Origin: Ideonella aquatica
GTDB taxonomy: Bacteria > Pseudomonadota > Gammaproteobacteria > Burkholderiales > Burkholderiaceae_C
Assembly: GCF_018069755.1 (NCBI RefSeq)
Contig: NZ_JAGQDE010000018.1
Location: forward strand, 1 to 64,000
DNA: 64,000 nt
Reading direction: 5' to 3'
A program made the position numbers and the translations under genes. This document shows positions 38,133 to 63,231 of this stretch, in pieces. Position 1 is the stretch's first letter, and every line of letters starts with the position of its first letter. Under the pieces are notes generated by a model, which did no database searches, had not been told where the DNA came from, and saw nothing but the letters and a program-made list of their open reading frames with translations.

Positions 38133-39407
38133 TCAGCCGAGCACGTCGGCCCAGATGTTCTTGGCCCAGGCCTCGGCGTAGCGGCCCTCCAGGTCGGAGC
38201 GCACATCGGAGACGCCGCCCGAGCCGCCGATCGTGAAGAAGCTCTTCTTCGGCGCCTGGTACTCGTGCACGCTGGCCACGTGGATCACGTGGGTGGCGTC
38301 CACATAGCTCATGCAGACATTGGTCAGCATCGGGTGCGGGTTGATCTCCATGCCCTGCAGCTCGGCCACGATGGCCGCGGCCGTGACCTTGGCGTGCGAG
38401 TTGGCCATGTGGCCCGACTTGGGCATGCCCTGGGCCACCTGGATCGCGTCACCGATGACGTGGATGTCCTTGGCGGCGGTGGACTCGAAGTTCAGGAAGT
38501 TGGTGTGGCACCAGCGTCCGTTGGCATTGGCCAGGCCGGTCTTGACGGCCAGGGCGCCAGCGCGCATGACCGGCAGCACGTTCAGCACGTCGGCCTTGAC
38601 GTCGTCCTGCACGTCGAACTTGACGGTCCGGGTCTTCGCATCCACCGCCACCGCCTTGTGCTGTGGCCGGTACTCGACCATCGGGCCGTAGATCTCGGCC
38701 CAGGCCTTCTTGAACAGCGGGCCCTTGGAGGTGACGTCCTGGTTGGCATCCAGAATCAGCACCTTGGACTTGGGCTTGTGCTGCTTCAGGTAGGCCGCCA
38801 CCACGCTGGCGCGCTCATAGGGGCCAGGCGGGCAGCGGTAGGGCGCCTCAGGGATGCTGATCGCGAAGACGCCGCCGTCGCGCATGGCCTCAAGCTGCTT
38901 GCGCAGTGCCATGGTCTCGGGACCGGCCTTCCAGGCGTGCAGCACGTCGCCGGCGGCGTGGGCAGCCTGCAGGCCTTCGATCTGGTCCCACATGAAATCG
39001 ATGCCGGGGGCCAGCACCAGCTTGTCATAGGTCACCGTGCCGCCGGAGGCCAGCACGGCGGTCTTCTTGGCCGGATCGATCGAGGCCACCGAGTCCTGCA
39101 CCACTCGCACGCCATGCTTGCTGGACAAGCCAGTGTAGGGATTGGTGATGTCGGCCATGGTCTTCATGCCGGCGATCACCAGGTTGGAGACCGGGCAGGA
39201 GACGAAGGCGGCATTGGGCTCGACCATCATCACGTCGATGCTGTAGTCGGACAGCAGCCGGATGTACTTGGAGACCGTGGCGCCGCCATAGCCGCCGCCC
39301 ACCACCAGCACCTTGGCCTTGTTGGCCGAGCCCACCGAGGCGCAGCCCGCCATGCCCAGCGCGCTGCCGGCCACCAGGCCGGCCAGAACTTGTCTGCGTT
39401 GCATCAT
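38133..39407 (-). CDS. fccB: Flavocytochrome c sulfide dehydrogenase flavoprotein (FccB/SoxF)
   Basis: Oxidises sulfide in the periplasm and passes electrons to its cytochrome subunit. 424 aa. FAD motif VLVVGGGYGG near residue 34. Cys in FVSCPVSNLVIAG near residue 70 matches the covalent 8-alpha-S-cysteinyl FAD site. Cys in YRCPPGPYERAS near 190 and VCMSYVDATHV near 365 fit the redox-active disulfide. The signal RRQVLAGLVAGSALGMAGC combines a Tat motif with a lipobox, suggesting a Tat-exported lipoprotein. ATG at 39407 follows AGGAG. 11 bp downstream of the cytochrome gene. Confidence 0.9.
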   Translation of the reverse strand: MMQRRQVLAGLVAGSALGMAGCASVGSANKAKVLVVGGGYGGATVSKYIRLLSDYSIDVMMVEPNAAFVSCPVSNLVIAGMKTMADITNPYTGLSSKHGVRVVQDSVASIDPAKKTAVLASGGTVTYDKLVLAPGIDFMWDQIEGLQAAHAAGDVLHAWKAGPETMALRKQLEAMRDGGVFAISIPEAPYRCPPGPYERASVVAAYLKQHKPKSKVLILDANQDVTSKGPLFKKAWAEIYGPMVEYRPQHKAVAVDAKTRTVKFDVQDDVKADVLNVLPVMRAGALAVKTGLANANGRWCHTNFLNFESTAAKDIHVIGDAIQVAQGMPKSGHMANSHAKVTAAAIVAELQGMEINPHPMLTNVCMSYVDATHVIHVASVHEYQAPKKSFFTIGGSGGVSDVRSDLEGRYAEAWAKNIWADVLG

Positions 39408-41793: not shown

Positions 41794-42159
41794 ATGTCAC
41801 AGGACCCCAGCCTCCACGCCGACACGGTGTTTGACTCCGTGGCGGAGCTGTTCTCGCTGCTGTCAACGCCGGTGCGGCTGAAGATCATCAGCGCGCTGTG
41901 CAACGGCGAGAAGAACGTCTCTCAGCTGCTCGACGAGATCGAGACCACCCAGCCCAACATGTCGCAGCATCTGGCCACGCTGTACCGCGCCGGCGTGGTG
42001 GGCAAGCGACGCGACAGCACCCAGATCTACTACCGCCTGCAAAGCGAGCGCGTGGCCACGCTGTGCCGCGCGGTGTGCACCCAGGTGGCCAGCGAGATGG
42101 ATCCGGACAGCGCCGTCGATCCGGACCAGCGCCTGCGTCCGGCGCCCAGCGTGCGCTGA
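41794..42159 (+). CDS. ArsR-family sulfur-responsive regulator (SoxR/BigR/SqrR type)
   Basis: 121-aa winged-helix repressor. HTH region KNVSQLLDEIETTQPNMSQHLATLYRAGVV and wing KRRDSTQIYYRL. Cys36 (ALCNGEK) is at the place of the first redox Cys of BigR/SqrR, which form intramolecular polysulfide links. The partner in those proteins is in the last helix; here Cys91 and Cys95 (TLCRAVC) lie in that helix but closer to the HTH than usual. It likely derepresses sulfur genes when persulfides build up. The upstream gap has TACAAT as a -10 element. Confidence 0.83.
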   Translation: MSQDPSLHADTVFDSVAELFSLLSTPVRLKIISALCNGEKNVSQLLDEIETTQPNMSQHLATLYRAGVVGKRRDSTQIYYRLQSERVATLCRAVCTQVASEMDPDSAVDPDQRLRPAPSVR

Positions 42160-42645: not shown

Positions 42646-42936
42646 TCAGCGCACCTTGCCCAGCAGGGTCTGGACTTCTTCCAGCACCTCGGTCAGCTGC
42701 TTGCGCCCCTTGGCGTTGTCGCCCAGGCGGTTGCCCAGCTCCTGCTCCATGAAGCACACGGTCATGCGCACATAGGTGCTGTCCAGCGCCTTGCGCACGG
42801 CGGCCATTTGGCTGGCGATGTCCAGGCAGGGCTGGCCTTCCTCGATCATGCGCTGGATGCCGCGCAACTGCCCTTCGGCGCGCTTGAGGCGGTTGAGCAG
42901 ATCAGTGCGGTTCTTTTCGTCGGTCAGCTGGGACAT
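42646..42936 (-). CDS. CsoR/FrmR-family transcriptional repressor with atypical Cys spacing
   Basis: 96-aa all-helical DUF156 repressor. The core LLNRLKRAEGQLRGIQRMIEEGQPCLDI is typical, with Cys37. The second Cys is at 61 (RMTVCFMEQE), 24 residues later, one before the usual His position and five before the second Cys of CsoR or CstR. It therefore fits neither the Cys-His-Cys copper set nor the CstR Cys pair exactly. Encoded in the RND-SQR operon, it is the best candidate to bind the 18-bp operators at 48964, 48988 and 28803. ATG 42936; an in-frame ATG at 42984 is less likely. Confidence 0.85.
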   Translation of the reverse strand: MSQLTDEKNRTDLLNRLKRAEGQLRGIQRMIEEGQPCLDIASQMAAVRKALDSTYVRMTVCFMEQELGNRLGDNAKGRKQLTEVLEEVQTLLGKVR

Positions 42937-49037: not shown

Positions 49038-49664
49038 TCACCACTGGGCCAACACCCGACCCTTGACCACCTTGCTGGCCAGGCGCTTGAGCGGGCTGTT
49101 GCCGGTCTTGATGCACTGACCAGTGTGGGCGTCGAAGGCCCAGTCGTGTTTGGGGCAGGTCAAGGTCTGACCCTTGAGGGCCAGTTCAGGCATGTCGGTG
49201 CCCTGGTGCGGGCAGCGGCTGTCATAGACCGTGACCGTGCGTCCCTGGCGGTACAGGAACAGGCCGCGGCCGTGGGCCTCGGTTCGACGCACCTCGCCGT
49301 CCTTCAGCGACTTGAACTCGCCCACATCGCGCCACTCGGTCTGGCCATGCAGCGCGGCCGGATCGAACTCGGGAATGCCCATCTCCAGGATCTGGTCCAC
49401 GGCCCAGACGATCTTGGCCAGACCCAGCGTGGGAAAGGCCATCAGCAGGGCGTCGAGCACCTCCATCGGCGTGCAGCCCTCGCGCAGCGCGCGGTTCAGG
49501 TACTGGCGAAAGCCGCGCGGGGTCTGCGCATCGACCTTGGTGATCACCGAGATCAGGTTGCGGGTCTTGGGGTCCAGGTGCGTGCCGCACTGCTTGAGAA
49601 AGGCGAAGTAGTGGCTGACGGCGTCGGGGCGGGCCTTGACGAGGTAGGCGAGGGCGTCACTCAT
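49038..49664 (-). CDS. Fusion of carboxymuconolactone-decarboxylase-like and Rieske domains
   Basis: 208 aa. Residues 1-100 look like a CMD/AhpD-type helical domain (HYFAFLKQCGTHLDPKTRNLISVITKV, then GCTPMEVLDALLMAF) with Cys but without the AhpD CxxC pair. Residues 115-200 form a Rieske [2Fe-2S] domain with CPHQGTD and CPKHDWAFD as Cys-His ligand pairs. No signal peptide. ATG overlaps the USP stop (ATGA), so it is co-translated at the end of the soe operon. A redox role in sulfite oxidation is possible, but no function is known to me. Confidence 0.8.
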   Translation of the reverse strand: MSDALAYLVKARPDAVSHYFAFLKQCGTHLDPKTRNLISVITKVDAQTPRGFRQYLNRALREGCTPMEVLDALLMAFPTLGLAKIVWAVDQILEMGIPEFDPAALHGQTEWRDVGEFKSLKDGEVRRTEAHGRGLFLYRQGRTVTVYDSRCPHQGTDMPELALKGQTLTCPKHDWAFDAHTGQCIKTGNSPLKRLASKVVKGRVLAQW

Positions 49665-50953: not shown

Positions 50954-51925
50954 TCAGGTCCATACGCCCAGGCCCTTGAGCAGCGCCCGCAGACCGGCGA
51001 ACAGCAGCACCGTGATCACCATGCGGCGGATCACCGAGCCCTTGAGCACGTCCAGCAGCCGCGCGCCCATGCGGGCCCCCAGCATCATGCCGGCCACCGA
51101 GGGCACGGCGATCATTGGCAGCACCGCGCCCTTGTTGATGTAGACCCAGGCCGCGGCCGAATCGACCAGCGACAGCACCAGGCCCGAGGTGCCGGCCGCC
51201 ACCTTCAGCGGCGCCCCCATCAGCAGGTTCAGCGCCGGCACATTGGCCCAGCCGGCGCCGATGCCGAACATGCCGGCCATCACGCCAATGACCAGGAACA
51301 GCGCCAGGCCCACTGGCGTGCGATGCACCTGCCAGGCCACCGGCTGGCGCGTGGCGCCGTCGATGAACACGCCATGCAGCGACAGCGCCTGACCCAGCGC
51401 GTCGCTGGCTGGCACCTGGGGCCGCTCTGATTTGCCAGCCACCAGCATCAGCGCCACGATGCCCAGCACGGTGCCGCCCAGCGCCACCTGCACAGCGGCG
51501 GCCGGCAATGCCAGGCCCAGCAGCGCACCGAAGATCGAGCTCAGCGAGGCCAGCAGCGCCAGTGGCATGGCCAGCCGCAGATGACCCAGGCCGCCGCGCA
51601 GCAGCGTGGGCGCGGCCGCCAGCGCGCTGGCCAGCGCCACCAGCAGGCCGGCGCCGCGGACAAAGTCGAGGTGGAATGGAAAGAAGCCGCCGATGATGGG
51701 CACGAACAGTGTGCCGCCCCCGATGCCCGCTGGCACCGCGATCAGCCCCATCAGAAAGCAGGCCAGAAACAGCTCCAGCGGCGTCCACCACCAGGCGGTG
51801 TCAGCGCCGGCAGCGGCTGGCGCGGCCCAGGCCACGCCCGCGCCCAGCAGCACCAGCGCCGCGACCGCCCAGGGCAGCCAGCCCGCCGACAGACCGGCAG
51901 GGCGACGCAGCGGCGCGAGTCTCAC
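50954..51925 (-). CDS. TSUP-family permease linked to soeABC
   Basis: 323 aa with eight to nine helices. First-half motif IAVPAGIGGGTLFVPIIGGFF and second-half motif GMFGIGAGWANVPALNLLMG show the TSUP duplication. TSUP members near sulfite-oxidation genes export or import sulfite, sulfate or thiosulfate (TauE/SafE knowledge). GTG 51925 overlaps the soeC stop (GTGA); there is no nearby ATG. A longer central loop of about 50 residues is unusual against the first TSUP at 2965. Confidence 0.83.
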   Translation of the reverse strand: MRLAPLRRPAGLSAGWLPWAVAALVLLGAGVAWAAPAAAGADTAWWWTPLELFLACFLMGLIAVPAGIGGGTLFVPIIGGFFPFHLDFVRGAGLLVALASALAAAPTLLRGGLGHLRLAMPLALLASLSSIFGALLGLALPAAAVQVALGGTVLGIVALMLVAGKSERPQVPASDALGQALSLHGVFIDGATRQPVAWQVHRTPVGLALFLVIGVMAGMFGIGAGWANVPALNLLMGAPLKVAAGTSGLVLSLVDSAAAWVYINKGAVLPMIAVPSVAGMMLGARMGARLLDVLKGSVIRRMVITVLLFAGLRALLKGLGVWT

Positions 51926-52836
51926 GCCGCCCTCTGGTAGTACAGGTTCTGCGGGTGGCTGGACTGGGCGAAGAAGAACCAGCGCTCCAGCAGCAGACCC
52001 AGGTACTGGACCGTGAAGGCCACGACCAGCAGGCCCGGCAGGATGATCGACAGCACCAGCAGCAGCAGCGGCACGACAAAGGCCAGCACCAGGAAGCCAT
52101 TGCGCACCAGCGTCATCACCGCCTGCGGCTGGCCATGGAAGAACTCGCGGGTGTTGAACGAGCCGCCCAGGAAACCGGTGGCGATCTGCACGATGCGCGG
52201 GTGGCGGATGCCGATCGCGCTGTGCAGCGTGGAGCGTGGCCGCAGCCGGGCATTGCGCCGCAGCGACAGGCTGCGGCTGACCGCGCCCGCCACCGTCAGG
52301 CCGATCGCCAGCAGCGCATAAGGCGGCGCCAGCTGCGGCTGCCCGAAGGTCGCCAATGCCGCGCCCAGCGTGGTGCCCGACGCACAACCCAGCAGCACAT
52401 AGTTGAGCAGCGTGTAGCTGCTGGCCCATTCCTGCAGGAAGCGCAGCGAGGCGTAGATCATCGCGGTGCAGACGAACAGCGCCCCGCAGGCCAGCGAACC
52501 CAGCACGGCCCACACCGCCACGCCCGGCCAGTTCTGCCGCAGCGAGACCGACCACAGAACCACGCAGCCCATGAACACCGGCAGGGCAATGACCTCGCGC
52601 GACAACCAGGAGGTGCGCCACATCGCGGCGGCGCGCCAGGCGCGCTCGGGGTGACCCAGGTGGAAGAACGAGGCGAACAGGCCCAGCGCCGCCAGCGCCA
52701 GGCACACAACGCCGCCGGTGACCAGGAAATCGCCATCGGCCAGGTTCAGGGCCTGGCTGCCCACCAGCAGCAGGAAAAGACCCTGGGCGGCACCGATCAG
52801 CGTGGTCAGGAAGATGACCGAGAAGGCGGGCTTCAT
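51922..52836 (-). CDS. soeC: SoeC-like membrane anchor (DmsC/NrfD type)
   Basis: 304 aa with eight transmembrane helices, DmsC-like. It anchors the cytoplasmic SoeAB unit and passes electrons to quinone. Segments FFHLGHPERAWRAAAMWRTSWLSREV near residue 60 and FNTREFFHG near 230 are typical of DmsC/SoeC. ATG overlaps the soeB stop; its own stop overlaps the TSUP start. Confidence 0.8.
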   Translation of the reverse strand: MKPAFSVIFLTTLIGAAQGLFLLLVGSQALNLADGDFLVTGGVVCLALAALGLFASFFHLGHPERAWRAAAMWRTSWLSREVIALPVFMGCVVLWSVSLRQNWPGVAVWAVLGSLACGALFVCTAMIYASLRFLQEWASSYTLLNYVLLGCASGTTLGAALATFGQPQLAPPYALLAIGLTVAGAVSRSLSLRRNARLRPRSTLHSAIGIRHPRIVQIATGFLGGSFNTREFFHGQPQAVMTLVRNGFLVLAFVVPLLLLVLSIILPGLLVVAFTVQYLGLLLERWFFFAQSSHPQNLYYQRAA

Positions 52837-53564
52837 GTCGCGTAGTCCTCAGACCCCGGAGCGCCGAGTTGCGGGTGTTCGGGCTGCTGCCCGTCGATCT
52901 TGAGCGGGTTGTCTACACGCACCAGGTCGTCCGGGCGGATCGTCATGCCGGTGCGCTGGCGCGGCAGGTAGTGGTTGGACGGCTGGGTGTTCCACTCGGG
53001 CATCAGCGCGTAGCCGCCGCGCTCACGGATGGCCACCGATACCACCGATTCGGGATCATGCACGTCGCCGAAGAGGCGGGCGTTGGCCGGGCAGGCCAGC
53101 ACGCAGGCCGGCTTGCGACGGTCTTCGGGCAGGCTCTGGTCGGTGACGCGGTCCACGCACAGCGTGCACTTGGTCATGACCTTGCGGTCCTCATCGAACT
53201 CGCGGGCACCGTAGGGGCAGGCCCAGGAGCAGTATTTGCAGCCGATGCACTTGTCGTAGTCGACCAGCACGATGCCGTCCTCGGCCCGCTTGTAGCTGGC
53301 GCCAGTGGGGCACACCGGCACGCAGGGCGGTTCCTCGCAGTGCAGGCAGCTCTTCGGGAAGTGGACGGTCTGGGTGTTGGGGAACTCACCCACCTCGAAG
53401 GTCTGCACCCGGTTGAAGAACGTGCCGCTGGGGTCGGCGCCATAGGGTTTGTCGTCGGTCAGCGGGCCGGCGCTGCCGGAGGTGTTCCACTGCTTGCAGC
53501 TGGTGACGCAGGCATGGCAGCCCACGCACACATTCAGGTCGATGACCAGGGCGAGCTGGGTCAT
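52833..53564 (-). CDS. soeB: SoeB-like ferredoxin subunit (4 x [4Fe-4S])
   Basis: 243 aa without signal peptide. Four Cys clusters: CVGCHACVTSCKQW near residue 12, CLHCEEPPCVPVCP near 75, CIGCKYCSWACP near 105, and CTLCVDRV with CVLACP near 130-155. It transfers electrons between SoeA and SoeC. The absence of a Tat signal supports a cytoplasmic location. Start overlaps the soeA stop (ATGA). Confidence 0.83.
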   Translation of the reverse strand: MTQLALVIDLNVCVGCHACVTSCKQWNTSGSAGPLTDDKPYGADPSGTFFNRVQTFEVGEFPNTQTVHFPKSCLHCEEPPCVPVCPTGASYKRAEDGIVLVDYDKCIGCKYCSWACPYGAREFDEDRKVMTKCTLCVDRVTDQSLPEDRRKPACVLACPANARLFGDVHDPESVVSVAIRERGGYALMPEWNTQPSNHYLPRQRTGMTIRPDDLVRVDNPLKIDGQQPEHPQLGAPGSEDYAT

Positions 53565-56473
53565 GCCTTGTCTCCCCGGGTCATGCGGCCGGCCCACCAG
53601 CCGCGCTGCTTCGGCGCCGGCTGCATGCCGGGCACCGGCTGCATCGTGTCAAAGCGGGGCCAGGTTTCGCCGGGCTCGCCGGGGTCGGCCGGGCGGATGC
53701 GCACACGCACGTCGTACCAGGCCGCCTGGCCGGTGATCGGGTCGCTGTTGGAGACGCTGCCGCCGCCGGCGGTGGGCAGCTCTTCCTTGATCAGGTGATT
53801 CAGCAGGAAGCCCTTGCGCGACTCGTTGGCGTCGCCGTCCAGGCTCCAGGCGCCGCTGGCCTTGCCAATCGCGTTCCAGGTCCAGACGGTGCCGGGTTCG
53901 ACCGCCTCGGTGTGCTGGCACAGGCAGCGCACCTTGCCCCAGGGCGACTCGACCCACATCCAGGCGCCGTCGGCAATACCCGCCGCCAGCGCGGTGCGGG
54001 TGTTCACCATCAGGTGGTTGTGGGTGTGGATCTGGCGCAGCCAGGCGTTCTGCGAGTCCCAGGAGTGGTACATCGCCATCGGCCGCTGGGTCACCGCGTT
54101 GAGGGGAAAGGCGCGCGTGTCCACGGCCTGTGATTCCAGTGGCGCGTAGTAGAACGGCAGCGGGTCGAAGAAGGTGTCGACGCGCTGGCGCAGCCGGTCC
54201 GGAGGCTGACGGCCAGGTTGCTTGCCCTGCGCGGCCAGGCGGAAGCGCTGCAGGAACTCGGAGTACAGGTGGATCACCACCGGGTCGCGGTCGCGGCGCA
54301 GGCCGGCCTGCTGGGCCCAGTCCATGTAGCCCTGGTTCCAGTTGCGCATGTACTGCAGCGACGGCGGCAGCACCAGATGGTGTACGCAGTTGTTCTGCGC
54401 GTACATCTCCCACTGGCGCGGGTTGGGTTCGCCGCGCATGCTCTTCTCGCCGCCCTTGCCGCGCCAGCCGGTGAGAAAGCCGATGCCTGAGCCCGGCGCG
54501 GTCTCGTAGTGAATGACGAAGTCAGGGTAGTCGCGGAACTTGCGGCTGCCGTCAGCGTGCGTGAAGGCCGGGAACTTGAGCCGGCTGGCCAACTCCACCA
54601 GCACGTCCTGGAAGGGCTTGCACTCGCCGGTGGGCGGCAGCACCGGGATGCGCACTGAATCGACCGGGCCGTCGAACTCGGAGATCGGCCGGTCCAGCAT
54701 CGACATGCAGTCGTGCCGCTCGAGGTAGGTGGTGTCGGGCAGGATCAGGTCGGCGAAAGCCGTCATCTCGCTCTGGAAGGCGTCGCACACCACCAGGAAC
54801 GGGATCTTGTACTCGCCCGACTCGTCCTTGTCGTTGAGCATCTGACGGACCTCGGACGTGTTCATCGTCGAGTTCCAGGCCATGTTGGCCATGAAGATCA
54901 GCAAGGTGTCGATGCGGTACGGGTCGCCACGCCAGGCGTTGGTGATGACGTTGTGCATCAGCCCGTGGGCCGACAGCGGGTACTCCCAGGAGAAGCCCTT
55001 GTCGATGCGCACCGGCTCGCCGGCGGCATCGACAAACAGGTCCTGCGGGCTCTCGACCCAGCCCAGCGGCGCGCCGTTCAGCGGGGTGTTGGGCTGCACG
55101 GCCTCGGGGCCCTTGGGCGGGCGTGCATTGGGCGGCACGGCGCGCGGGTAGGGTGCCTTGTGACGAAAGCCGCCGGGGCGGTCGATCGTGCCCAGCAGGC
55201 TCATCAGGATGGCCAGCGAGCGGATGGTGTGAAAACCGTTGCTGTGCGCCGCCAGACCGCGCATGGCATGGAAGGACACCGGGTTGCCGGTGACCGAATC
55301 GTGGGTCTTGCCCCAGCAGTCGGTCCAGGCGATCGGCAATTCGATGCGCTGGTCGCGCGCCGTCACGCCCATCTCGTGGGCCAGGCGTCGGATGGTGGCG
55401 GCGGGGATGCCGGTGATGTCGGCGGCCCATTCCGGTGTGTAGGCCTTGACCCGTTCTTCCAGCAACTGGAAGGCCGGCACGGCGGGCGTGCCGTCGGGCA
55501 GCTGGAAGTGGCCCAGCAGCGCCGGATCCGCGCCCTCGGTGTGCTCGGCCACGGCCTGCTGGCTCAGTCGGTCCCACCAGAAGAAGTTGTGCGGGCGCAG
55601 CGGATTGCGGATGTCACCCTCGGTATTGCGCAGCATCAGGCCGAAGTCGGCGCTGGCGCTGTCCTGGTTCACCAACTGGCCGGCGTTGGTGTAGCGGGCA
55701 ATGAAGTCGCGGTCGTAGAGGCCCAGCGCGATGATCTCGTGGATGATGGCCAGCAGCAGCGCGCCGTCGGTGCCCGGCTTGATCGGCACCCACTCGTCAG
55801 CGATCGCAGCGTAGCCGGTGCGCACCGGGTTGACTGCGATGAAGCGGCCGCCGTTGCGCTTGAACTTCGCCAGCTGCATCTTCATCGGGTTGGAGTGGTG
55901 GTCCTCCGCCGTGCCGATCATGATGAACAGCTTGCTGCGCTCCAGGTCGGGGCCGCCAAACTCCCAGAACGAGCCGCCGATCGTGTAGATCATGCCGGCG
56001 GCCATGTTGACCGAGCAGAAGCCGCCGTGCGCCGCGTAGTTGGGCGTGCCGAACTGGCGCGCGAACAGGCCGGTCAGGGCTTGCATCTGGTCGCGGCCGG
56101 TGAAGAGGGCGAATTTCTTGGGATCGGTGGCGCGCAGGTGGCGCAGGCGTTCTTCCAGCGTGCCGAAGGCCTCGTCCCAGGAGATTTCCTCGTACTGGTT
56201 GGCGCCGCGCTCGGTGCCGGGCTTGCGCCGCAACGGCTTGAGCAGCCGGGCTGGCGAGTACTGCTTCATGATGCCCGAGGAGCCCTTGGCGCAGATCACG
56301 CCCTGGTTCAGCGGGTGGTCGGGGTTGCCCTCGATGTAGCGGACCTCCCCGTCGCGCAGGTGCACCCGGATGCCACAGCGGCAGGCGCACATGTAGCAGG
56401 TGGTGTCCTTGGTCTCGGTGCGGGCGCCGGGCAGGGGCGGCGCGGTCGGGTCGTGCAGCGGTGTGGCTGTCAT
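53561..56473 (-). CDS. soeA: SoeA-like molybdopterin oxidoreductase (DMSO reductase family)
   Basis: Catalytic subunit, about 970 aa, the expected SoeA length. N-terminal [4Fe-4S] site CYMCACRCGIRV with a distal Cys in NQGVICAKGSSG; the likely Mo-ligand Cys is in HGGFCSVNMAAG near residue 165; C-terminal MGD-binding part has NARTALAAGIADG-like sequence. No Tat signal, so cytoplasmic, as for SoeABC of Allochromatium that oxidises sulfite to sulfate. A polysulfide or tetrathionate reductase relative cannot be fully excluded. The start is uncertain: ATG 56473 is given; 56527 and 56536 are in frame. Confidence 0.8.
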   Translation of the reverse strand: MTATPLHDPTAPPLPGARTETKDTTCYMCACRCGIRVHLRDGEVRYIEGNPDHPLNQGVICAKGSSGIMKQYSPARLLKPLRRKPGTERGANQYEEISWDEAFGTLEERLRHLRATDPKKFALFTGRDQMQALTGLFARQFGTPNYAAHGGFCSVNMAAGMIYTIGGSFWEFGGPDLERSKLFIMIGTAEDHHSNPMKMQLAKFKRNGGRFIAVNPVRTGYAAIADEWVPIKPGTDGALLLAIIHEIIALGLYDRDFIARYTNAGQLVNQDSASADFGLMLRNTEGDIRNPLRPHNFFWWDRLSQQAVAEHTEGADPALLGHFQLPDGTPAVPAFQLLEERVKAYTPEWAADITGIPAATIRRLAHEMGVTARDQRIELPIAWTDCWGKTHDSVTGNPVSFHAMRGLAAHSNGFHTIRSLAILMSLLGTIDRPGGFRHKAPYPRAVPPNARPPKGPEAVQPNTPLNGAPLGWVESPQDLFVDAAGEPVRIDKGFSWEYPLSAHGLMHNVITNAWRGDPYRIDTLLIFMANMAWNSTMNTSEVRQMLNDKDESGEYKIPFLVVCDAFQSEMTAFADLILPDTTYLERHDCMSMLDRPISEFDGPVDSVRIPVLPPTGECKPFQDVLVELASRLKFPAFTHADGSRKFRDYPDFVIHYETAPGSGIGFLTGWRGKGGEKSMRGEPNPRQWEMYAQNNCVHHLVLPPSLQYMRNWNQGYMDWAQQAGLRRDRDPVVIHLYSEFLQRFRLAAQGKQPGRQPPDRLRQRVDTFFDPLPFYYAPLESQAVDTRAFPLNAVTQRPMAMYHSWDSQNAWLRQIHTHNHLMVNTRTALAAGIADGAWMWVESPWGKVRCLCQHTEAVEPGTVWTWNAIGKASGAWSLDGDANESRKGFLLNHLIKEELPTAGGGSVSNSDPITGQAAWYDVRVRIRPADPGEPGETWPRFDTMQPVPGMQPAPKQRGWWAGRMTRGDKA

Positions 56474-56555
56474 GTCATGGCCGGCGAGCGCCAGGTCGGC
56501 GTCGCGCGTGTGTCTCCTGGGCGGCATTAGGCGCAAGGGCCAGGGTCAGCGTCTA

Positions 56556-56571
56556 TTCCCGCGAACGGGAA
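56556..56571. promoter_or_regulatory. Inverted repeat TTCCCG-N4-CGGGAA
   Basis: Perfect 6-4-6 palindrome in the soeA/kinase intergenic region; candidate regulator site. Confidence 0.45.
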
Positions 56572-56577
56572 GCGCGG

Positions 56578-56594
56578 CTACCCCATCCGGGTAG
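56578..56594. promoter_or_regulatory. Inverted repeat CTACCC-N5-GGGTAG
   Basis: Perfect 6-5-6 palindrome. The TACCCCA half resembles a NarL heptamer (TACYYMT) with one mismatch; the neighbouring response regulator is NarL-like. Confidence 0.5.
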
Positions 56595-56687
56595 TGGGGG
56601 TTTTCACCAGGGTGTCGGGTTGATGCCGCACGGGGTATATGGTTGTTCCCGATGCCGGAGCCTGGACGGCCGGTATTAAATAAGCGG

Positions 56688-57884
56688 ATGCGAATATCCA
56701 ACCTGCCCGCCACCGATGCCGCGTTGCACACGGTGCCCGGCGCCGGTTTGCTGGCCGAGATCACCGCCGATCTGGCCTCCGGCCACGACCTGGCCGACTT
56801 GCTGCGGCGCTTCCTGGAGCCGGTGGTGCGCCTGGCCGGTGCCCAGGCCGGTGCCGTGCGGGCGCTCAGCGACGATGGCCTGGCGCTGCGCCTGATCGGC
56901 CAGGTGGGCCTGCCCGAGCGGGTGGCCGGGCATGAGCAGGTGGTCAACAGCCAGTGTGGCGTCTGCGGTGAAGCTGCCTGGGAGCACCGCAGCGCCTGGA
57001 GCGCGGATGTGCAGTCGTGCAACGCCCATTGCGGCGGCGACGACGACGGCAGTTTCTTCGGTGGCGGTTGCCGGCGCGTGCTGGCGGTGCCGTTGCAGCG
57101 CCGCGAGCGGGTGCTGGGGGTCTACAACCTGTTCTTCGGGCCGGGCGTTGAGCCCTCGGCCGAGGTGCAGACCATGCTGCGCGCGATCGGCGACCTGCTC
57201 GGTCTGGCCATGGACAACGCCCGCCTGGAGCGCGAGAACCTGCAGGCCATGATCGTCGCGGAGCGCCAGGCCATGGCGGCCGAGGTGCACGACGCGGTGG
57301 CCCAGAGCCTGGCCTACATCAAGATGCGCATGCCGCTGCTGCAAGAGGCGATCGAGGTCTGCGACCAGCCGCGCGCGGCTGCCTACGTTGACGACGTGCG
57401 CCGTGCCACCAGCGAGGCCCACGCCAGCCTGCGCGAGGTGCTGGCGCATTTTCGTGCGCCGGTGCCGCAGCGCGGGCTGCTGCCGGCCCTGGCCGACCTG
57501 GCCGATCACTTCCCCGAGCGCTTCGGCCTGCCACTGCGCTACCAGAACCAGGCCCCCCGGCTGACCTTGTCGGCCGATCAGGAGGCGCAGGCCTTCCACA
57601 TCGTCCAGGAGGCCCTGGCCAATGTGGCCCGCCATGCCCAGGCGCGCCATGCCTGGCTGACCGTGGCTGTGCGCGACGGCGAGATCGGCTTCACGATCGA
57701 CGACGACGGCCTGGGCGCCGATTGGTCCCACGTGCCCGGCCCCACCGACGACGTCGGCCACCATGGCCTGCAGATCATGCGCGAGCGCGCCCGCCGGCTG
57801 GGCGGACACCTCGACATCGGTCCGCGCGCCGAGGGGGGTACCCGGGTCCACCTGGGCTTCCCTGCCTCGGCGGCCGGCCGATGA
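56688..57884 (+). CDS. Cytoplasmic sensor histidine kinase with Cys-rich GAF domain (NarX-like output)
   Basis: 398 aa, no transmembrane helix. Residues 30-190 form a GAF-like domain; its centre carries a Cys-rich stretch (QCGVCGEAAWEH, SCNAHCGGDDDG and GGGCRR, six Cys). The HisKA_3 box AEVHDAVAQSLAYIKMRMPLL near 200 and HATPase FHIVQEALANVARHAQARH near 305 are the NarX/NreB type. The Cys could bind an Fe-S cluster or sense redox or sulfur state. ATG 56688 is given; ATG 56652 is in frame. Overlaps the regulator by 4 bp. Confidence 0.83.
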   Translation: MRISNLPATDAALHTVPGAGLLAEITADLASGHDLADLLRRFLEPVVRLAGAQAGAVRALSDDGLALRLIGQVGLPERVAGHEQVVNSQCGVCGEAAWEHRSAWSADVQSCNAHCGGDDDGSFFGGGCRRVLAVPLQRRERVLGVYNLFFGPGVEPSAEVQTMLRAIGDLLGLAMDNARLERENLQAMIVAERQAMAAEVHDAVAQSLAYIKMRMPLLQEAIEVCDQPRAAAYVDDVRRATSEAHASLREVLAHFRAPVPQRGLLPALADLADHFPERFGLPLRYQNQAPRLTLSADQEAQAFHIVQEALANVARHAQARHAWLTVAVRDGEIGFTIDDDGLGADWSHVPGPTDDVGHHGLQIMRERARRLGGHLDIGPRAEGGTRVHLGFPASAAGR

Positions 57885-58585
57885 GCACGTCGCCCGCCGC
57901 AGAGCACCCGGTGCGCATCGTCCTGGTGGACGACCATGCGCTGTGCCGCAACGGCCTGACCGACCTGCTGACCCACCGCGGCGGCATGCACGTCATGGCC
58001 TCCACCGGCGATCCGGCCCAGGTGGTCCCGCTGCTGCGGCAGCACGACCCCGACCTGGTGGTGCTGGACCTGCGCATGCCCAGCACCGACGGCCTGACCC
58101 TGCTGCGCCAACTGCGTGCCGAGGGCGTGCAGACGCCGGCCCTGATCCTGACCATGAGTGACGCCGAGGACGACCTGGCAGCTGCGCTGCGCGCCGGTGT
58201 GCGCGGCTACCTGCTCAAGGACATGGAGCCCGAGGACGTGATCTCGTCCATCGCCCGTGCAGCCCGCGGCGAGCTGACGGTGGCGCCGGCGATGACGCTG
58301 AAGCTGGCGCAACTGCTGCAGTCCGGCCCCAAAGGCAATGAGCGCGACGAGATGCTGGCCTCGCTGACCGAGCGCGAGCGCCAGATCCTGGAGCGGCTGG
58401 CGCTGGGCGAGAGCAACAAGACCATCGGCCGGGCGCTGGACATCAGCCACGACACCGTCAAGCTGCATGTGCGCCACATCCTGGCCAAGCTGCACCTGAG
58501 CTCGCGCGTGGAGGCGGCGGTGTTTGCGGTCGAGGCCCGCACCGGCCAGCGCGAGCTGGGCGAGCCCCCGGCCCGCCGTCGCTGA
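57881..58585 (+). CDS. NarL-family response regulator
   Basis: 234 aa. Receiver domain with VDDHALCRNGL near residue 17, phosphoacceptor Asp in LVVLDLRMPSTDG near 64 and Lys in GYLLKDMEPEDV near 115. A LuxR-type HTH near 165-225 carries LTERERQILERLALGESNKTIG. It pairs with the upstream kinase and may control the divergent soe operon. Ends 2 bp before the convergent cobA stop. Confidence 0.9.
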   Translation: MSTSPAAEHPVRIVLVDDHALCRNGLTDLLTHRGGMHVMASTGDPAQVVPLLRQHDPDLVVLDLRMPSTDGLTLLRQLRAEGVQTPALILTMSDAEDDLAAALRAGVRGYLLKDMEPEDVISSIARAARGELTVAPAMTLKLAQLLQSGPKGNERDEMLASLTERERQILERLALGESNKTIGRALDISHDTVKLHVRHILAKLHLSSRVEAAVFAVEARTGQRELGEPPARRR

Positions 58586-58587
58586 CA

Positions 58588-59370
58588 TCAGGCCGCTGCG
58601 ACCTGGGCGGCAGGCTCGAACCACTGCATCGTCGGGTGCAGGCTGACCACCGTGCCAACGATGATCAGCGCCGGTGATTGCAGCCCCGCATCGATCACCC
58701 GTTGCGCCAGGTCGGTCAGCGTGCCGCAGACCGCGCGCTGCTGCGCTGTCGTGCCCTGCTGCACCACTGCGGCGGGCATGTCGGCCGGCAGGCCGTGCTG
58801 CTGCAGTTGGTGGCAGATGTCGGGCAGCGCCGACAGACCCATGTAGATCACCAGGGTCTGGCGCGGTCGGGCCAGACCAGCCCAGTCCAGCTCGGCGTTG
58901 CCGTCCTTCAGGTGGCCGGTGACGAAGACGCAGGCCTGGGCATGGTCGCGGTGGGTCAGCGGGATGCCGGCGTAGCTGGAGACACCGCAGGCGGCGGTGA
59001 TGCCGGGCACCACCTCGAAAGACACGCCGTGCGCCGCCAGCACCTCGATTTCCTCGCCGCCGCGGCCGAAGACGAAGGGATCACCACCCTTGAGCCGCAC
59101 CACACGCCGGCCCTCGCGCGCCAGTCGCACGAGCAGCTCGTTGATGCCCTCCTGCGGCAGGCTGTGTCGGGCCATCTGCTTGCCCACGTAGCGCATCTCG
59201 GCGGCCGGGTTGGCCAGGGCCAGCACCTCGGGCGAGACCAGGTGGTCATAGACCAGCACCTCGCACTGGCTCATCAGGCGCAGCGCGCGCAGGGTCAGCA
59301 ACTCGGGGTCGCCGGGGCCGGCGCCGACCAGGGCCACATGGCCCGCGGCGGGATCGAGACGGTGATGCAT
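58588..59370 (-). CDS. cobA: Uroporphyrinogen-III C-methyltransferase
   Basis: Makes precorrin-2, the precursor of sirohaem. 260 aa, the single-domain SUMT form. Blocks [20 protein letters not shown] near residue 12, YDHLVSP near 40, [16 protein letters not shown] near 90 and [23 protein letters not shown] near 125 are intact. Encoded 11 bp after dsrR at the end of the dsr operon, it would supply sirohaem for DsrAB. The Shine-Dalgarno GAGGAG is good. Confidence 0.92.
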
Positions 59371-59381
59371 CGGCGGGCTCC

Positions 59382-59741
59382 TCAGGCGCTGCGGCAGTTG
59401 CCGCAGCCACCGCTGCCACAGCCGCCGCGGGCGGCTTTCTCGGTGTCGTTGGCGCAGTGCTGCGGGGGCACGAAGATGAAGGCGCTCTGGCCGGGCTCCA
59501 ACTCGACGAAGTCCAGCGTCGTGCCGTCCAGCAGCGGCTGGCTGGACGGCGCCACCAGCACCACCAGGCCGTCAAACTCCAGGTTCAGGTCGTCGTCGCC
59601 GGGGTCGTCGAAGCCCATGCCGTAGTCCAGGCTGCCATCGGCGCCCAGGCGTGCGGCCACGCGCAGCGCCGCGCCCTCGCAGCCGGACTGGGCGGCCGAC
59701 CAGCGGATCTGGGACACGGCGGCGTCACTGAGCGTCAGCAT
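59382..59741 (-). CDS. dsrR: DsrR, A-type scaffold-like protein with Cys-rich tail
   Basis: 119 aa of the IscA/HesB fold. At the place of the first IscA cluster Cys the sequence reads [13 protein letters not shown], without Cys, as expected of DsrR. Unlike the cysteine-poor Allochromatium DsrR, it ends in a Gly/Cys-rich tail [14 protein letters not shown] plus Cys in PPQHCAN. DsrR is needed for proper dsr expression or assembly in Allochromatium. ATG 59741 lies 17 bp inside the end of dsrN. Confidence 0.8.
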
Positions 59742-61242
59742 GGGAGCGGTCTCCAAGGGAATGGACAGCGGGCGTGAGGAAGGAGGCTGTCAGCCGGTGG
59801 GCATCCCGCCAGCGGCGTACCTGGGCCACGAAGTGCTCGGGCCAGCAGGTGCCGGCGGCGTGCCGCAGGTGCGTATAGGACGCCAGGCATTGGCGCACCA
59901 GCACACCATCGTGGCTGCCGTCGATGCCGTGGCCGCGGCTGACCCGCCAGGCGAAGCGGGTGCCGTCGGGCAGGCCATCCAGGCGTGAATGGTGAAACTC
60001 ATGGCCGCGCCACTGCACCGGCGCGCCGGCCGCCACCTGCGCGCCCAGCCAGGGGTGGTGCTCGGTGGCCTCGACATGCACATAGCCGCGGCCCACCGGG
60101 CGGGCCTGCATGCGCACCTCACCCGGGATCACGCCCACCATCTCGGCCTGCTTGCCGCCGAAATGGATGCGCCGCGACAGGTACATCAGGCCGCCGCACT
60201 CGGCATAGGTGGGCAGGCCGGCGTCGATGGCCTGGCGGACCGAGGCGCGCATGCCCTGGTTGGCCGACAGCGGGCCGATGAACATTTCGGGGAAACCGCC
60301 GCCGATGAACAGGCCGTCAACGCCTGCGGGCAGCGCGGCATCGAGCAGGGTGTCGAAGAAGCACAGCTCGGCCCCGGCGGCCTGCAGGGCGCTCAGGTCG
60401 TCGGCGTAGTAGAAGCCGAAGGCGGCGTCGCGGGCCACGGCGATGCGCACCGGGTCGGCGGCGGGCGCGGCAGGCGCTGCAGCCGCCGCGTCGGGGAAGC
60501 GCAGCCTGGGCGTGTCGGCCGGGGCCTGGCGCGGTGCGCAGCGCTCGATCAGCCGGCTCAGGTCGACCTGGGTGTCCACGGCCTGGGCCAGCGCGCCGAT
60601 GCGGGCGTGGGCGTCGTGCACCTCGGCATCGGGCATCAGGCCCAGGTGGCGCTCGTCCAGCGCAATGGCGGGATCGTGCTGCACCGCACCCAGCACGGTG
60701 AGGTCGGTGTAGTGCTCGATCACCGCGCGCAGCTTGGACTCGTGGCGCGAGCCGCCCAGCTGGTTGAGGATGACGCCGGCAAAGCGCATGTCGCGGTCGA
60801 AGGCCTGGTAGCCCAGCAGCAGCGGCGCGATGCCGCGCGTCATGCCACGGGCGTCGATCACCAGCACCACCGGCAGGTCCAGCAGCTTGGCCAGTGCGGC
60901 ATTGCTGTTGCTGCCATCCAGCGACAGACCGTCATACAGGCCCTTGTTGCCCTCAACGAAGCCGACGTCGGCGCCCGCCATGCGCGCCAGCACCGCATCG
61001 CGGATGTCGGCCTCGGCACTCAGGTAGGGGTCGAGGTTGATGCAGTCGCGGCCACTGGCGCGGGCCAGCCACATCGGGTCGATGTAGTCCGGGCCCTTCT
61101 TGAAGGTCTGCACCCGCAGGCCGCGCCGCGCCATGGCCGCCGCCAGGCCGATGCTGAGCGTGGTCTTGCCCGAGGACTTGTGCGCGGCCGACACCATCCA
61201 CATCGGCGCCGTCGCGGCGATCAGGGGCAGGGACGGGGCCAT
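59725..61242 (-). CDS. dsrN: DsrN, cobyrinate a,c-diamide synthase-like sirohaem amidase
   Basis: 505 aa, CobB/CbiA family. P-loop AAHKSSGKTTLSIGLAAAM near residue 19, GNKGLYDGL near 98 and a class I amidotransferase domain with the nucleophile in TYAECGGLMYLS near 350. In dsr operons it amidates sirohaem to siroamide for DsrAB. ATG directly follows the dsrP stop with no gap. Confidence 0.88.
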   Translation of the reverse strand: MAPSLPLIAATAPMWMVSAAHKSSGKTTLSIGLAAAMARRGLRVQTFKKGPDYIDPMWLARASGRDCINLDPYLSAEADIRDAVLARMAGADVGFVEGNKGLYDGLSLDGSNSNAALAKLLDLPVVLVIDARGMTRGIAPLLLGYQAFDRDMRFAGVILNQLGGSRHESKLRAVIEHYTDLTVLGAVQHDPAIALDERHLGLMPDAEVHDAHARIGALAQAVDTQVDLSRLIERCAPRQAPADTPRLRFPDAAAAAPAAPAADPVRIAVARDAAFGFYYADDLSALQAAGAELCFFDTLLDAALPAGVDGLFIGGGFPEMFIGPLSANQGMRASVRQAIDAGLPTYAECGGLMYLSRRIHFGGKQAEMVGVIPGEVRMQARPVGRGYVHVEATEHHPWLGAQVAAGAPVQWRGHEFHHSRLDGLPDGTRFAWRVSRGHGIDGSHDGVLVRQCLASYTHLRHAAGTCWPEHFVAQVRRWRDAHRLTASFLTPAVHSLGDRSHADAQ

Positions 61243-62469
61243 TCAGTGGGCCTCCTGGGTATCGCTGAGTTCGTCCTGGGGCAGGAAGTCCAGCACCCGC
61301 ACACCCACCGTGGTCAGCACGAAGGCCACCGCCAGTCCGCCCAGGCCCAGCAGGGCTTCCCACAGGCTGGGCACATAGCGCGCGACCTGGCCATCGCCAA
61401 AGCTGGAGCGCACCGAATGGCCGGGAAAGATCTCGAGCGGAAAGGCCTGGCCGCCGATGATGAACACATGCAGGAAGGCGAAGCCGCCGGCCACCACCAG
61501 CACCGCGGCCAGCAGCATGCTGCGCGGGCCCCCCATCCAGGGCAGATACAGCAGGGCCACCGGCACCAGGGTGCCGACCAGGCCCCAACCGCCCCAGAAC
61601 AGCATCGAATACAGCTCGCCGCCGCCGCGACCCAGCAGCAGGAAGGCCTCAAAGTCCGACTGCCGGGCGAAATACAGGTTGGTGGCGTGGTAGACCGCCA
61701 CCAGGTAGGCCGAGGCGATCAGGAACAGGCCCAGCAGGCGCGACATGCGCTGGCGTGTGGCATCGGGCAGCACCTGCTCGTTCCAGCGGTACATGGCCGA
61801 CTGAACGATCAGGAACACCGCCAAGCCCCATCCGAAGCTCAGCACGATGAACAGTGGCGCCAGCAGCGCCGACTGGTAGGCCTGGCGTGCCACCAGGAAG
61901 CCGAAGATCGAGCCGGTGCCGGTGGTCAGCACGAAGCGCCAGGCCAGGGCAGCGATGCCCGCGCTGCGTGACCACGGTTGCAGGCGCCGCTCGAACATCG
62001 TCCACAGGTAGACCGCGACGATGGCGAACATGCCCGAGTACAGGAACACGTTCCACGCGAAGACCGAGCGGAAGTTGTAGTGCGTGGCGGCCACGATCAC
62101 GCGGTCGGGCCGGCCCAGGTCGAGCATCAGCACGAACAGGCCGCCGGCCAGCATGGCCAGCGTCAGCAGACCCGACAGCGGCGCACGCCGCTTGTACAGG
62201 CTGCGGCCGAAGACCGAGCCGATCGAGGCCACGTTCAGCGCCCCCGACGCGGCGACGATCAGGAAGATCGCGAACACATGCGGCAGACCCCAGACCACCT
62301 GGTTGTCCATGCCGCTGATCACATGGCCGTGGTGCTCCAGCGTGGCAGCGGCCAGCAGGCCCAGCGCCACGCCGGTACCGCCCAGCACCAGCAGCAGGTA
62401 GAACAGGCGTTCGCGCAGCGTGTACAGGCCGGGCGACAGGCGTTGCATCGAAGGCAGGGTGGCGGCCAT
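61243..62469 (-). CDS. dsrP: DsrP, NrfD-type integral membrane subunit
   Basis: 408 aa with ten transmembrane helices. It is the quinone-interacting part of DsrMKJOP, which links the periplasm, the quinone pool and the sulfur carrier DsrC. Motifs LGRPDRVIVAATHYNFRSVFAWNVFLY near residue 120 and GSIFGFLVARQAYQSALLAP near 190 are NrfD/HybB-like. ATG preceded by GAGG; 9 bp after dsrO. Confidence 0.88.
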   Translation of the reverse strand: MAATLPSMQRLSPGLYTLRERLFYLLLVLGGTGVALGLLAAATLEHHGHVISGMDNQVVWGLPHVFAIFLIVAASGALNVASIGSVFGRSLYKRRAPLSGLLTLAMLAGGLFVLMLDLGRPDRVIVAATHYNFRSVFAWNVFLYSGMFAIVAVYLWTMFERRLQPWSRSAGIAALAWRFVLTTGTGSIFGFLVARQAYQSALLAPLFIVLSFGWGLAVFLIVQSAMYRWNEQVLPDATRQRMSRLLGLFLIASAYLVAVYHATNLYFARQSDFEAFLLLGRGGGELYSMLFWGGWGLVGTLVPVALLYLPWMGGPRSMLLAAVLVVAGGFAFLHVFIIGGQAFPLEIFPGHSVRSSFGDGQVARYVPSLWEALLGLGGLAVAFVLTTVGVRVLDFLPQDELSDTQEAH

Positions 62470-62478
62470 GGTGGGTCC

Positions 62479-63231
62479 TCAGAGGCCGGCGTAGCGCACG
62501 CCCGGGTCCAGACGCAGGTCGGCGCGCAGCGGGGTGCTGGCCACCGCGCGGATGCGGCGGGCGATCTCGCTGTCGGGGTCGTTCAGGTTGCCGAAGACGA
62601 TGGCGCCATGGCCCGCGCGGGTGCAGGCCTCGGCGCAGGCGGTGGTGGTCTCGCCGCGGTCCAGACGGTGCACGCACAGCGTGCAGCTTTCCACGCAGCC
62701 CTGGCCGCGCGGCACATCGGGCTTCTGGCCGGTGGTTGGCTCATGCACGAAGGAGCGTGCCTTGTAGGGGCAGGCCATCATGCAGTAGCGGCAGCCGATG
62801 CAGGCGTGGCGATCGACCAGCACGATGCCGTCGGCGCGCTTGAACGAGGCGCCAGTGGGACAGACATCGACGCAGGGCGGCTCGGCGCAGTGCTGGCACA
62901 TCACCGGTGCACGCTGCTCGCGGCCACTGGCGTGGTCCTTGATCTCGACCAGGCGGATCCACTGGGCCGAGGTGGCGCTGACCGCCGCGGGCAGGCCGTT
63001 CTCGGTCTGGCAGGCGCTGACGCAGTCGGTGCAGCCGTCAGCGCATTTCGTGGTGTCGATCAGCATGCCCCAGCGCACGGCCTCGTTGGCCGACGCCTGG
63101 GGGGCGGCACGGGCCACCTCGATCAGCGTGATGCCTGGGGCCAGCAGCACGCCGCCGCCCAGCGCAGCCGCCAGAAAGCCCCGACGCTTCAGGTCGGCCG
63201 GTGTCTTCTCGGAAGTGTCGTGGCAGCTCAT
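62479..63231 (-). CDS. dsrO: DsrO, periplasmic iron-sulfur subunit
   Basis: 250 aa. Tat signal KRRGFLAAALGGGVLLAPG near residue 15. Four ferredoxin-like Cys clusters: CADGCTDCVSACQ near 63, CQHCAEPPCVDVCP near 110, CIGCRYCMMACP near 140 and CVESCTLCVHR with CAEACTRAG near 175-200. It carries electrons between DsrJ and DsrP. Its start overlaps the dsrJ stop (ATGA). Confidence 0.9.
   Translation of the reverse strand: MSCHDTSEKTPADLKRRGFLAAALGGGVLLAPGITLIEVARAAPQASANEAVRWGMLIDTTKCADGCTDCVSACQTENGLPAAVSATSAQWIRLVEIKDHASGREQRAPVMCQHCAEPPCVDVCPTGASFKRADGIVLVDRHACIGCRYCMMACPYKARSFVHEPTTGQKPDVPRGQGCVESCTLCVHRLDRGETTTACAEACTRAGHGAIVFGNLNDPDSEIARRIRAVASTPLRADLRLDPGVRYAGL

Follow-up and report, generated by a model that had tools for sequence, protein, structure and literature searches.

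What does the two-component system that lies between soeA and the dsr operon of Ideonella aquatica control, and what does it sense? We asked this of a stretch of 64,000 nucleotides (the window; positions 1 to 64,000 of NZ_JAGQDE010000018.1) that is part of contig C9 of a 5.17-Mb genome. Here a sensor kinase gene and a response regulator gene stand on the plus strand, the latter overlapping the kinase stop by 4 bp, between soeA and the dsr operon, which are both on the minus strand. A first-pass annotation had proposed that the pair controls SoeABC through its NarL-like regulator, and comparative genomics supports this well. The regulon is likely to be wider than soeABC: dsrA and tusA-dsrE2 carry the same DNA element, as does sat-aprBA in relatives. 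From these sequence comparisons, we consider the pair to be, quite probably, a two-component system dedicated to cytoplasmic sulfur oxidation (reverse-Dsr (rDsr), Soe and Tus, with sat-aprBA in relatives) that senses through a GAF domain and binds this operator. The computations establish the gene linkage, the conserved operator and its near-exclusive location, the co-occurrence with dsrA, and a recognition helix that changes with the operator. The features at the center of the argument are as follows.

56688..57884, plus strand: soluble sensor histidine kinase, GAF_2-HisKA_3-HATPase_c (ATG start; Pfam)
57881..58585, plus strand: NarL-family response regulator, Response_reg (REC) and GerE (Pfam)
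53561..56473, minus strand: soeA-like molybdopterin oxidoreductase subunit (DMSO-reductase family models)
52833..53564, minus strand: soeB-like 4Fe-4S subunit (family models)
51922..52836, minus strand: soeC-like DmsC-type anchor (family models)
56578..56594, no strand: operator copy 1, CTACCC-CATCC-GGGTAG, CTACCCCATCCGGGTAG; the second palindrome of the first-pass annotation
56556..56571, no strand: degenerate operator copy 2, TTCCCG-CGAA-CGGGAA, TTCCCGCGAACGGGAA; its first palindrome
56550..56556, minus strand: conserved ATAGACG (CGTCTAT on the plus strand), a putative -10-like element
56550..56594, minus strand: composite operator/promoter element TACCC-N4-GGG-N-TA - N22 - ATAGACG, pointing at soeA

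The soe names are those of the first-pass annotation; family models place SoeABC-like proteins no closer than the DMSO-reductase family. Alternative starts for the kinase frame lie at 56643 (TTG) and 56733 (GTG).

The divergent region measures 214 bp from the soeA ATG (56473) to the kinase ATG (56688), as annotated, and both palindromes described in it are present on direct reading. They had been taken for two independent sites, whereas promoter alignment makes them halves of one composite element. In the aligned promoters, TACCC-N4-GGG-N-TA is followed after 7–8 bp by a degenerate second copy, CACCC-N4-CGG, and then by TAATAGACG, so that the two operator copies are 23–24 bp apart. The second palindrome is kept in the tusA copy and in the congener; the first is not kept as a perfect palindrome in either and aligns with the degenerate second operator copy, and we rejected it as an independent site. 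Across the genome, CTACCC-N5-GGGTAG occurs at two places as an identical 17-mer, upstream of soeA and, 23 kb away, upstream of tusA-dsrE2-yeeE (one place for the reversed-pattern control). The longer TACCC-N5-GGGTA-N18-GGGAATAGACGCTG is exact at both and has no other genomic match within three mismatches. A third copy, with one mismatch, lies in the dsrA promoter region of the same genome. The refined consensus, TANCCC-N4-GGGTA, has three genomic matches (reversed control, two): at soe, at tusA and, at C2:25590, inside an unrelated 260-aa open reading frame (ORF) that presumably encodes a WecG/TagA-like glycosyltransferase. Because it lies within this ORF, we took the third match as chance and rejected it as a regulon member. 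NarL sites are TACYYMT heptamers in a 7-2-7 arrangement; at 15 bp, TANCCC-N4-GGGTA is one base shorter, with similar half-sites.

We then looked for the operator in the promoters of relatives, beginning with a pattern, TACCC-N5-GGGTA with at most one mismatch, that was read from the window alone and is therefore not circular. It was found in 31 of 31 dsrA promoters (300 bp) and 28 of 31 tusA promoters (200 bp), the window's own genome included in each, in 12 of 16 soeA-kinase gaps (window included), and in five of six sat-kinase gaps. On the Thiobacillus/Sulfuricella (second) side, it was found in 13 of 28 dsrA promoters. Shuffling each promoter set 20 times never gave a count above 2. Exact matches to the refined TANCCC-N4-GGGTA numbered 24/31 for dsrA, 27/31 for tusA, 10/16 for the soeA gap, 5/6 for the sat gap and 6/28 for second-side dsrA; because the dsrA and tusA sets served to refine this form, its counts there are partly circular. 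The kinase loci L051–L130 (the best 80 of 429 relatives, kept from a scan of 84,980 species) total 1.19 Mb and contain 17 matches to it; by our reading, 16 lie in the gap upstream of the kinase or upstream of tusA and one elsewhere (L058:868). Thus, as expected of an rDsr/Soe regulator, the operator is conserved at the target promoters.

The location of the element is also nearly exclusive. A stringent composite pattern, TACCC-N4-GGG-N-TA-N21-24-ATNGAC, scanned over 100 whole genomes, gave ten matches in six of them, and every one is upstream of dsrA (G015, G032, G042 and G096), tusA (G000, G032 and G042) or soeA (G000, G002 and G042), as assigned by coordinates and sequences. The reversed control gave none, and the pattern was absent from the 87 genomes of the 100 that lack dsrA. 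The promoters from which it was drawn come in part from the same 100 genomes (judged by coordinates and sequences, G032 and G042 appear to be G105 and G134 of the promoter sets), and what makes it informative is therefore the absence of matches elsewhere.

Gene linkage points the same way. The hosts among the best 80 include Thiobacillus, Sulfuricella, Rhodoferax, Rubrivivax, Ramlibacter lithotrophicus and Azohydromonas sediminis. At 43 of these 80 beta loci, the flanking sequence retrieved, often short, includes dsr, soe, apr or sat genes; the partners include soeABC, aprBA-sat and the reverse-Dsr operon. At 18 loci, the dsr operon flanks the pair at one end and soeA, sat or aprB at the other, and a siroheme methyltransferase gene is present at 48. 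We searched for dsrA in 67 of the best-80 genomes and for dsrE2 in 36, and found dsrA in 34 of 36 (strong matches by our own reading; 36 at E 0.001) and in 29 of 31. Each search fetched at most 30 loci, and two of the 30 second-side dsrA loci lacked the N-terminus. Gene placements rest on tblastn; our own gene caller chose the antisense strand in L037, L039, L048, L283, L287, L295 and L341. Among the 100 relatives, the soluble kinase is present in 12 (E ≤1e-56, open frames of 384–544 aa, read from the table), all of which belong to the 13 that have dsrA (Fisher p ~1e-14, ignoring relatedness), while 79 of the 87 dsrA-less genomes have some match to the kinase query.

A similar arrangement is seen in Gammaproteobacteria (the gamma side). 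Of 369 genomes in the class, 118 (our own included) have dsrA, and a kinase-query match (E ≤1e-25) was found in 56 of the 60 that we searched, the best-scoring dsrA matches among the 117 other than our own. The best kinase match shares its contig with a dsrA copy 12.7–21.5 kb away in 32 of the 56 genomes; it is on another contig in 22 (many of them drafts) and 82–84 kb away in two. In 15 of 17 regions read, the kinase and regulator directly follow the dsrN/dsrR end of the operon, the exceptions being L291 and L297; these regions were hand-chosen, mostly for having kinase and dsrA on one contig.

The gamma promoters carry an operator of their own. The beta operator matched 0 of the 29 dsrA promoters from the class search exactly and one within one mismatch. 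A dyad search of these promoters instead yielded TATCCC-N4-GGGATA, exact in 7/29 and within two mismatches in 18/29 (300 bp). Of 40 held-out promoters (400 bp), 12 have an exact site, 23 a site with at most one mismatch and 34 a site with at most two, against shuffle means of 0.0, 0.0 and 0.6. The two sets share some genera, G322 gave a different dsrA copy to each, and the held-out set follows the order of the list but passes over some rows, including G276, G363 and several second dsrA copies. A site within two mismatches is present, in the first set (400 bp), in 19 of 26 promoters from kinase-positive genomes and in none of three from kinase-negative ones (Fisher p 0.03, hand count), a co-occurrence that is weak because one negative, G236, is incomplete and because G399, a kinase-negative genome of the second set, has a one-mismatch site. 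G198 and G343 lack both the kinase match and the site. The recognition helix follows the operator. It is HDTVKLHVRH in the window regulator and in most beta orthologues, with variants in others; the gamma proteins have DGTVKLHVKA or a similar sequence, and NarL-type neighbors have ETTVKIHVQH or a similar sequence, so that the three types change in step with the operators.

If the pair regulates these genes, how would it work? We propose that the kinase senses a cytoplasmic signal via its GAF domain and phosphorylates the NarL-like regulator. The regulator would then bind the tandem operator copies (consensus TANCCC-N4-GGGTA, 23–24 bp apart) and thereby control transcription of soeABC, the dsr operon and tusA-dsrE2, as well as sat-aprBA in relatives, most likely as an activator. 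Were ATAGAC the -10 element, operator 1 would be centered near -42, the usual place for a class II activator.

To ask what the signal may be, we examined the kinase itself. Its 398 residues contain GAF, HisKA_3 and HATPase as the only Pfam families, and no 19-residue hydrophobic window exceeds the threshold used, which bears out its description as a cytosolic protein without a membrane segment. Weak windows (≤1.85) occur in 11 of the 80 soluble orthologues, nine of them near the GAF start, at residues ~34–96 of frames with uncertain starts; we rejected these as membrane segments. The six cysteines that had been placed in the GAF domain are all in the kinase, but the domain itself holds five (90, 93, 111, 115 and 128), and the sixth, C225, lies after the phosphorylated histidine H201 (numbered from the methionine at 56688). 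Across 81 soluble kinases, the window's included, C90, C93 and C111 are invariant and C128 is present in 74, where Fe-S GAF/PAS sensor kinases have four conserved cysteines in a cytosolic sensor domain; C115 and C225 are each found in two of 30 aligned kinases. The outcome that the first-pass annotation named as refuting its model, a lack of cysteine conservation among orthologues, thus did not occur. The further claim that the protein is unlike NarX stands for its missing membrane part but not for its cysteines, as the membrane-bound NarX-type kinases of relatives share those at 93 and 111. In these kinases, C91, C93 and C111 are present in 18/18 and C85 in 17/18, with C91 and C85 replacing C90 and C128. 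The gamma kinases have C91 in 29/30 and C93 and C111 in 30/30. A C93/C111 pair is thus common to soluble, gamma and NarX-type kinases, with the rest of the set rearranged.

The three to four conserved GAF cysteines are likely the sensing site. The gamma kinases are 529–566 aa long (681 in L291), and 14 of 16 have two hydrophobic windows. Only in L291 are these widely separated (by ~146 residues). L281, the single kinase of this group that we scanned, has HAMP, GAF, HisKA_3 and HATPase. The short loop between the helices in most gamma relatives read makes the GAF domain the likely input domain. The predicted model of the window kinase has a mean pLDDT of 81.4; fold searches matched mainly its transmitter, with DesK on top, and are therefore silent on the cysteine site. 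We think it most likely that the kinase reads the sulfur or redox state of the cell. If the pair is the dedicated regulator that we propose, reversible thiol or persulfide chemistry, responding to sulfide or sulfane sulfur, is a plausible if tentative signal; an O2- or redox-labile Fe-S cluster seems somewhat doubtful, as does, to a similar degree, another signal or a purely structural cysteine site.

A redox or Fe-S based switch was the model of the first-pass annotation; in its Fe-S form, the kinase would be a GAF analog of NreB and AirS in which loss of a cluster in air alters kinase activity. Such GAF/PAS kinases exist, according to a review cited in PMC8199190, and the soluble clade conserves a C-x2-C...C...C set. 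However, the fourth cysteine is absent in seven of the 81 soluble kinases, and the gamma relatives keep only three (C91, C93 and C111). Additionally, many hosts oxidize sulfur in air. On balance, we regard such a switch as possible but unlikely.

Several observations weigh against a dedicated sulfur-oxidation regulator. The stringent composite misses seven of the 13 dsrA genomes and is selective rather than sensitive. Four or five of the 16 soeA-kinase gaps, depending on the pattern, have no site within one mismatch. On the Thiobacillus/Sulfuricella side, the same is true of 10 of 28 dsrA promoters, and a scan upstream of the kinase (spacer 4–6) found a site in none of 31 loci. The thirteenth dsrA genome, G015, has dsrA and the operator, and the soluble kinase was not found in it; its dsrA contig ends inside dsrL. 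On the gamma side, seven of 26 kinase-positive promoters lack a site within two mismatches (L225, L234, L235, L238, L241, L243 and L245), and kinase-negative G399 carries a one-mismatch site. Finally, at dsrA the same composite stands in the opposite orientation and points away from the gene, so a simple -10 reading does not fit the dsrA promoter.

Some of these points would suit an element that belongs to another transcription factor, either a genuine NarL or a LuxR-type protein, with the neighboring pair a mere hitchhiker in the sulfur cluster. Many relatives do have other NarX-type kinases, and both G015 and gamma G399 keep the operator where a cognate kinase was not found. Nevertheless, we judge this improbable. 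Among the 100 relatives, the soluble kinase occurs only in dsrA genomes (12/12). None of the 87 dsrA-less genomes contains the composite, even though 79 of them have some kinase-query match. A different operator in gamma than in beta comes with a different recognition helix, and the gamma genomes G198 and G343 lack kinase match and site alike.

Could the pair instead be a nitrate or nitrite sensor that ties sulfur oxidation to nitrate respiration? Its closest named families are NarQ/NarX for the kinase and NarL for the regulator, some hosts are named as denitrifiers, and narQL transcripts of Hyphomicrobium fall when sulfur regulators are absent (PMC12423496). The kinase has the HisKA_3 and HATPase_c transmitter of NarX/NarQ, and the regulator has the REC and GerE domains of NarL, with NarL (1a04) as its closest PDB entry. 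Despite this, the scores fall short of the NCBIfam cut-offs, far short for the kinase (NarQ, 149 of 553 bits; NarX, 139.9 of 578 bits; NarL, 219.3 of 250 bits), and the window kinase has no periplasmic nitrate-binding sensor flanked by membrane helices. Most gamma relatives read have two helices joined by a short loop (L291 is one exception), followed by HAMP and GAF in the one scanned. A tree of 61 kinases (the window's, 27 from the 80 beta loci, 15 of the 30 gamma kinases and 18 of NarX type; rooted for drawing only) also resolves three separate clades: soluble (28 rows, 100/100), gamma (15, 93/90) and NarX types (18, 100/100). Given the missing periplasmic sensor domain, the low NarX/NarQ scores and the separate clade, we reject nitrate sensing as very improbable. 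The weakest alternative takes the shared element for a stretch of DNA that was duplicated recently and has no regulatory role. It draws on the identical 17-mer of the soe and tusA copies but is hardly credible, as genomes whose kinases share no more than ~44–59% identity with the window's keep the element at the same genes while its flanks have diverged.

A dedicated sulfur-oxidation regulator may have a broader history. We suggest, tentatively, that it predates the divergence of beta and gamma and acts as a master regulator of reverse-Dsr across the class. Its cysteine-bearing GAF domain would sense intracellular sulfane sulfur, sulfide or redox state, and the kinase would be membrane-anchored in most gamma members read, fully soluble in beta, and often labeled NarXL. 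The pair may often have been mistaken for a nitrate sensor. The Allochromatium vinosum genome paper reports a NarX-NarL (Alvin_1057/1058) and no obvious nitrate-reduction genes (PMC3368242), and at a guess this pair may be such a mislabeled case; the NarL/NarX pair of a vent sulfur oxidizer is listed as possibly virulence-related (PMC4136832). A candidate of this kind would allow the 'NarXL' labels in sulfur bacteria to be re-examined.

The other genes around the pair within the window are as follows.

50954..51853, minus strand: TauE/SafE sulfite exporter, directly downstream of soeC
58588..59370, minus strand: uroporphyrinogen-III C-methyltransferase (siroheme synthesis), beside the regulator
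59382..59741, minus strand: DsrR/IscA-like protein (Fe-S_biosyn match that narrowly misses the Pfam cut-off)
59725..61242, minus strand: dsrN, named from position (CobB family; CobB model above cut-off)
61243..62469, minus strand: dsrP (DsrP model matched, below cut-off)
62479..63231, minus strand: dsrO (DsrO model reaches cut-off)

The dsr operon runs past the window end to its first gene, dsrA, at C9:70515-71810. Models for dsrA, dsrB, DsrC/TusE, DsrK, DsrO and CobB are at or above cut-off and those for DsrM and DsrP below it; the other dsr names are presumed from gene order. Divergent from dsrA (L003:8064-9275 = C9:72064-73275) is a row of DUF6967, a Cas6-family protein (E 5e-37), unexpected beside dsr genes, and a DsrC-like paralog; a DsrC-like gene is also divergent from dsrA in L341 and L344–L346. 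TauE/SafE homologs occupy the same place in loci L035 and L044. Also downstream of the soe genes, 49038-49664 (minus strand) encodes a predicted protein with carboxymuconolactone-decarboxylase-like and Rieske 2Fe-2S domains. Near the tusA operon, L003:18023-19234 (plus strand) encodes a CAP12/Pycsar-type TIR domain protein, a possible anti-phage effector. Elsewhere in the window, an ArsR-type regulator (41794-42159, plus strand) and a metal-sensitive-repressor CsoR/CstR-like regulator (42646-42936, minus strand) are close to a Pyr_redox_2 (SQR-like) gene and to a gene for flavocytochrome c sulfide dehydrogenase (38133-39374); they are possibly separate sulfane-sulfur repressors.

Reverse-Dsr is a main route for stored-sulfur oxidation in proteobacterial sulfur oxidizers, purple sulfur bacteria and symbionts. 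In the literature available to us, chiefly open-access and partly in excerpt, no regulator or two-component system is assigned to the rDsr operon; the study of A. vinosum dsr regulation by Grimm et al. 2010 is known to us via citations. How dsr, soe, sat-apr and tus are controlled can now be put to the test in cultured hosts such as Ramlibacter lithotrophicus or a Thiobacillus, given a candidate sensor, a candidate regulator and a candidate 45-bp operator.

How does the pair compare with known systems? Like NarX/NarQ-NarL, the nitrate systems of E. coli, it combines a HisKA_3 kinase that has a GAF-like region with a regulator whose closest PDB relative is NarL. The window kinase differs in having neither periplasmic sensor nor membrane part and in scoring under the NCBIfam cut-offs. 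Its cysteine geometry differs from that of the NarX types of relatives; recognition helix and operator are different too, and the likely regulon is sulfur oxidation. NreB of S. carnosus and AirS of S. aureus are cytosolic kinases with four cysteines in a PAS or GAF domain. They resemble the window kinase in being cytosolic with a cysteine-bearing sensor domain; their Fe-S content has reportedly been measured, whereas a cluster in the window kinase would be hypothetical, and neither is known to control sulfur oxidation. For NarX/NarQ themselves, a review states that no evidence is available for sensing by the GAF-like domain itself (PMC8199190). RsrSR of Acidithiobacillus caldus is a two-component activator beside its sulfur-oxidation targets with an inverted-repeat site, but it is EnvZ/OmpR-like, recognizes AACACCTGTTACACCTGTT and serves the tetrathionate pathway (PMC5093147). 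sHdrR and SoxR of Hyphomicrobium also regulate cytoplasmic sulfur oxidation, though as ArsR-type repressors that respond to sulfane sulfur (PMC12423496). The closest experimental precedent that we found is NreBC of Bacillus licheniformis, a kinase and regulator that respond to sulfide and activate the sulfur-oxidation genes sqr-pdo, with phosphorylation strengthening regulator binding (PMC9918477). Its sensor is a PAS rather than a GAF domain, and it acts in other bacteria on other target genes.

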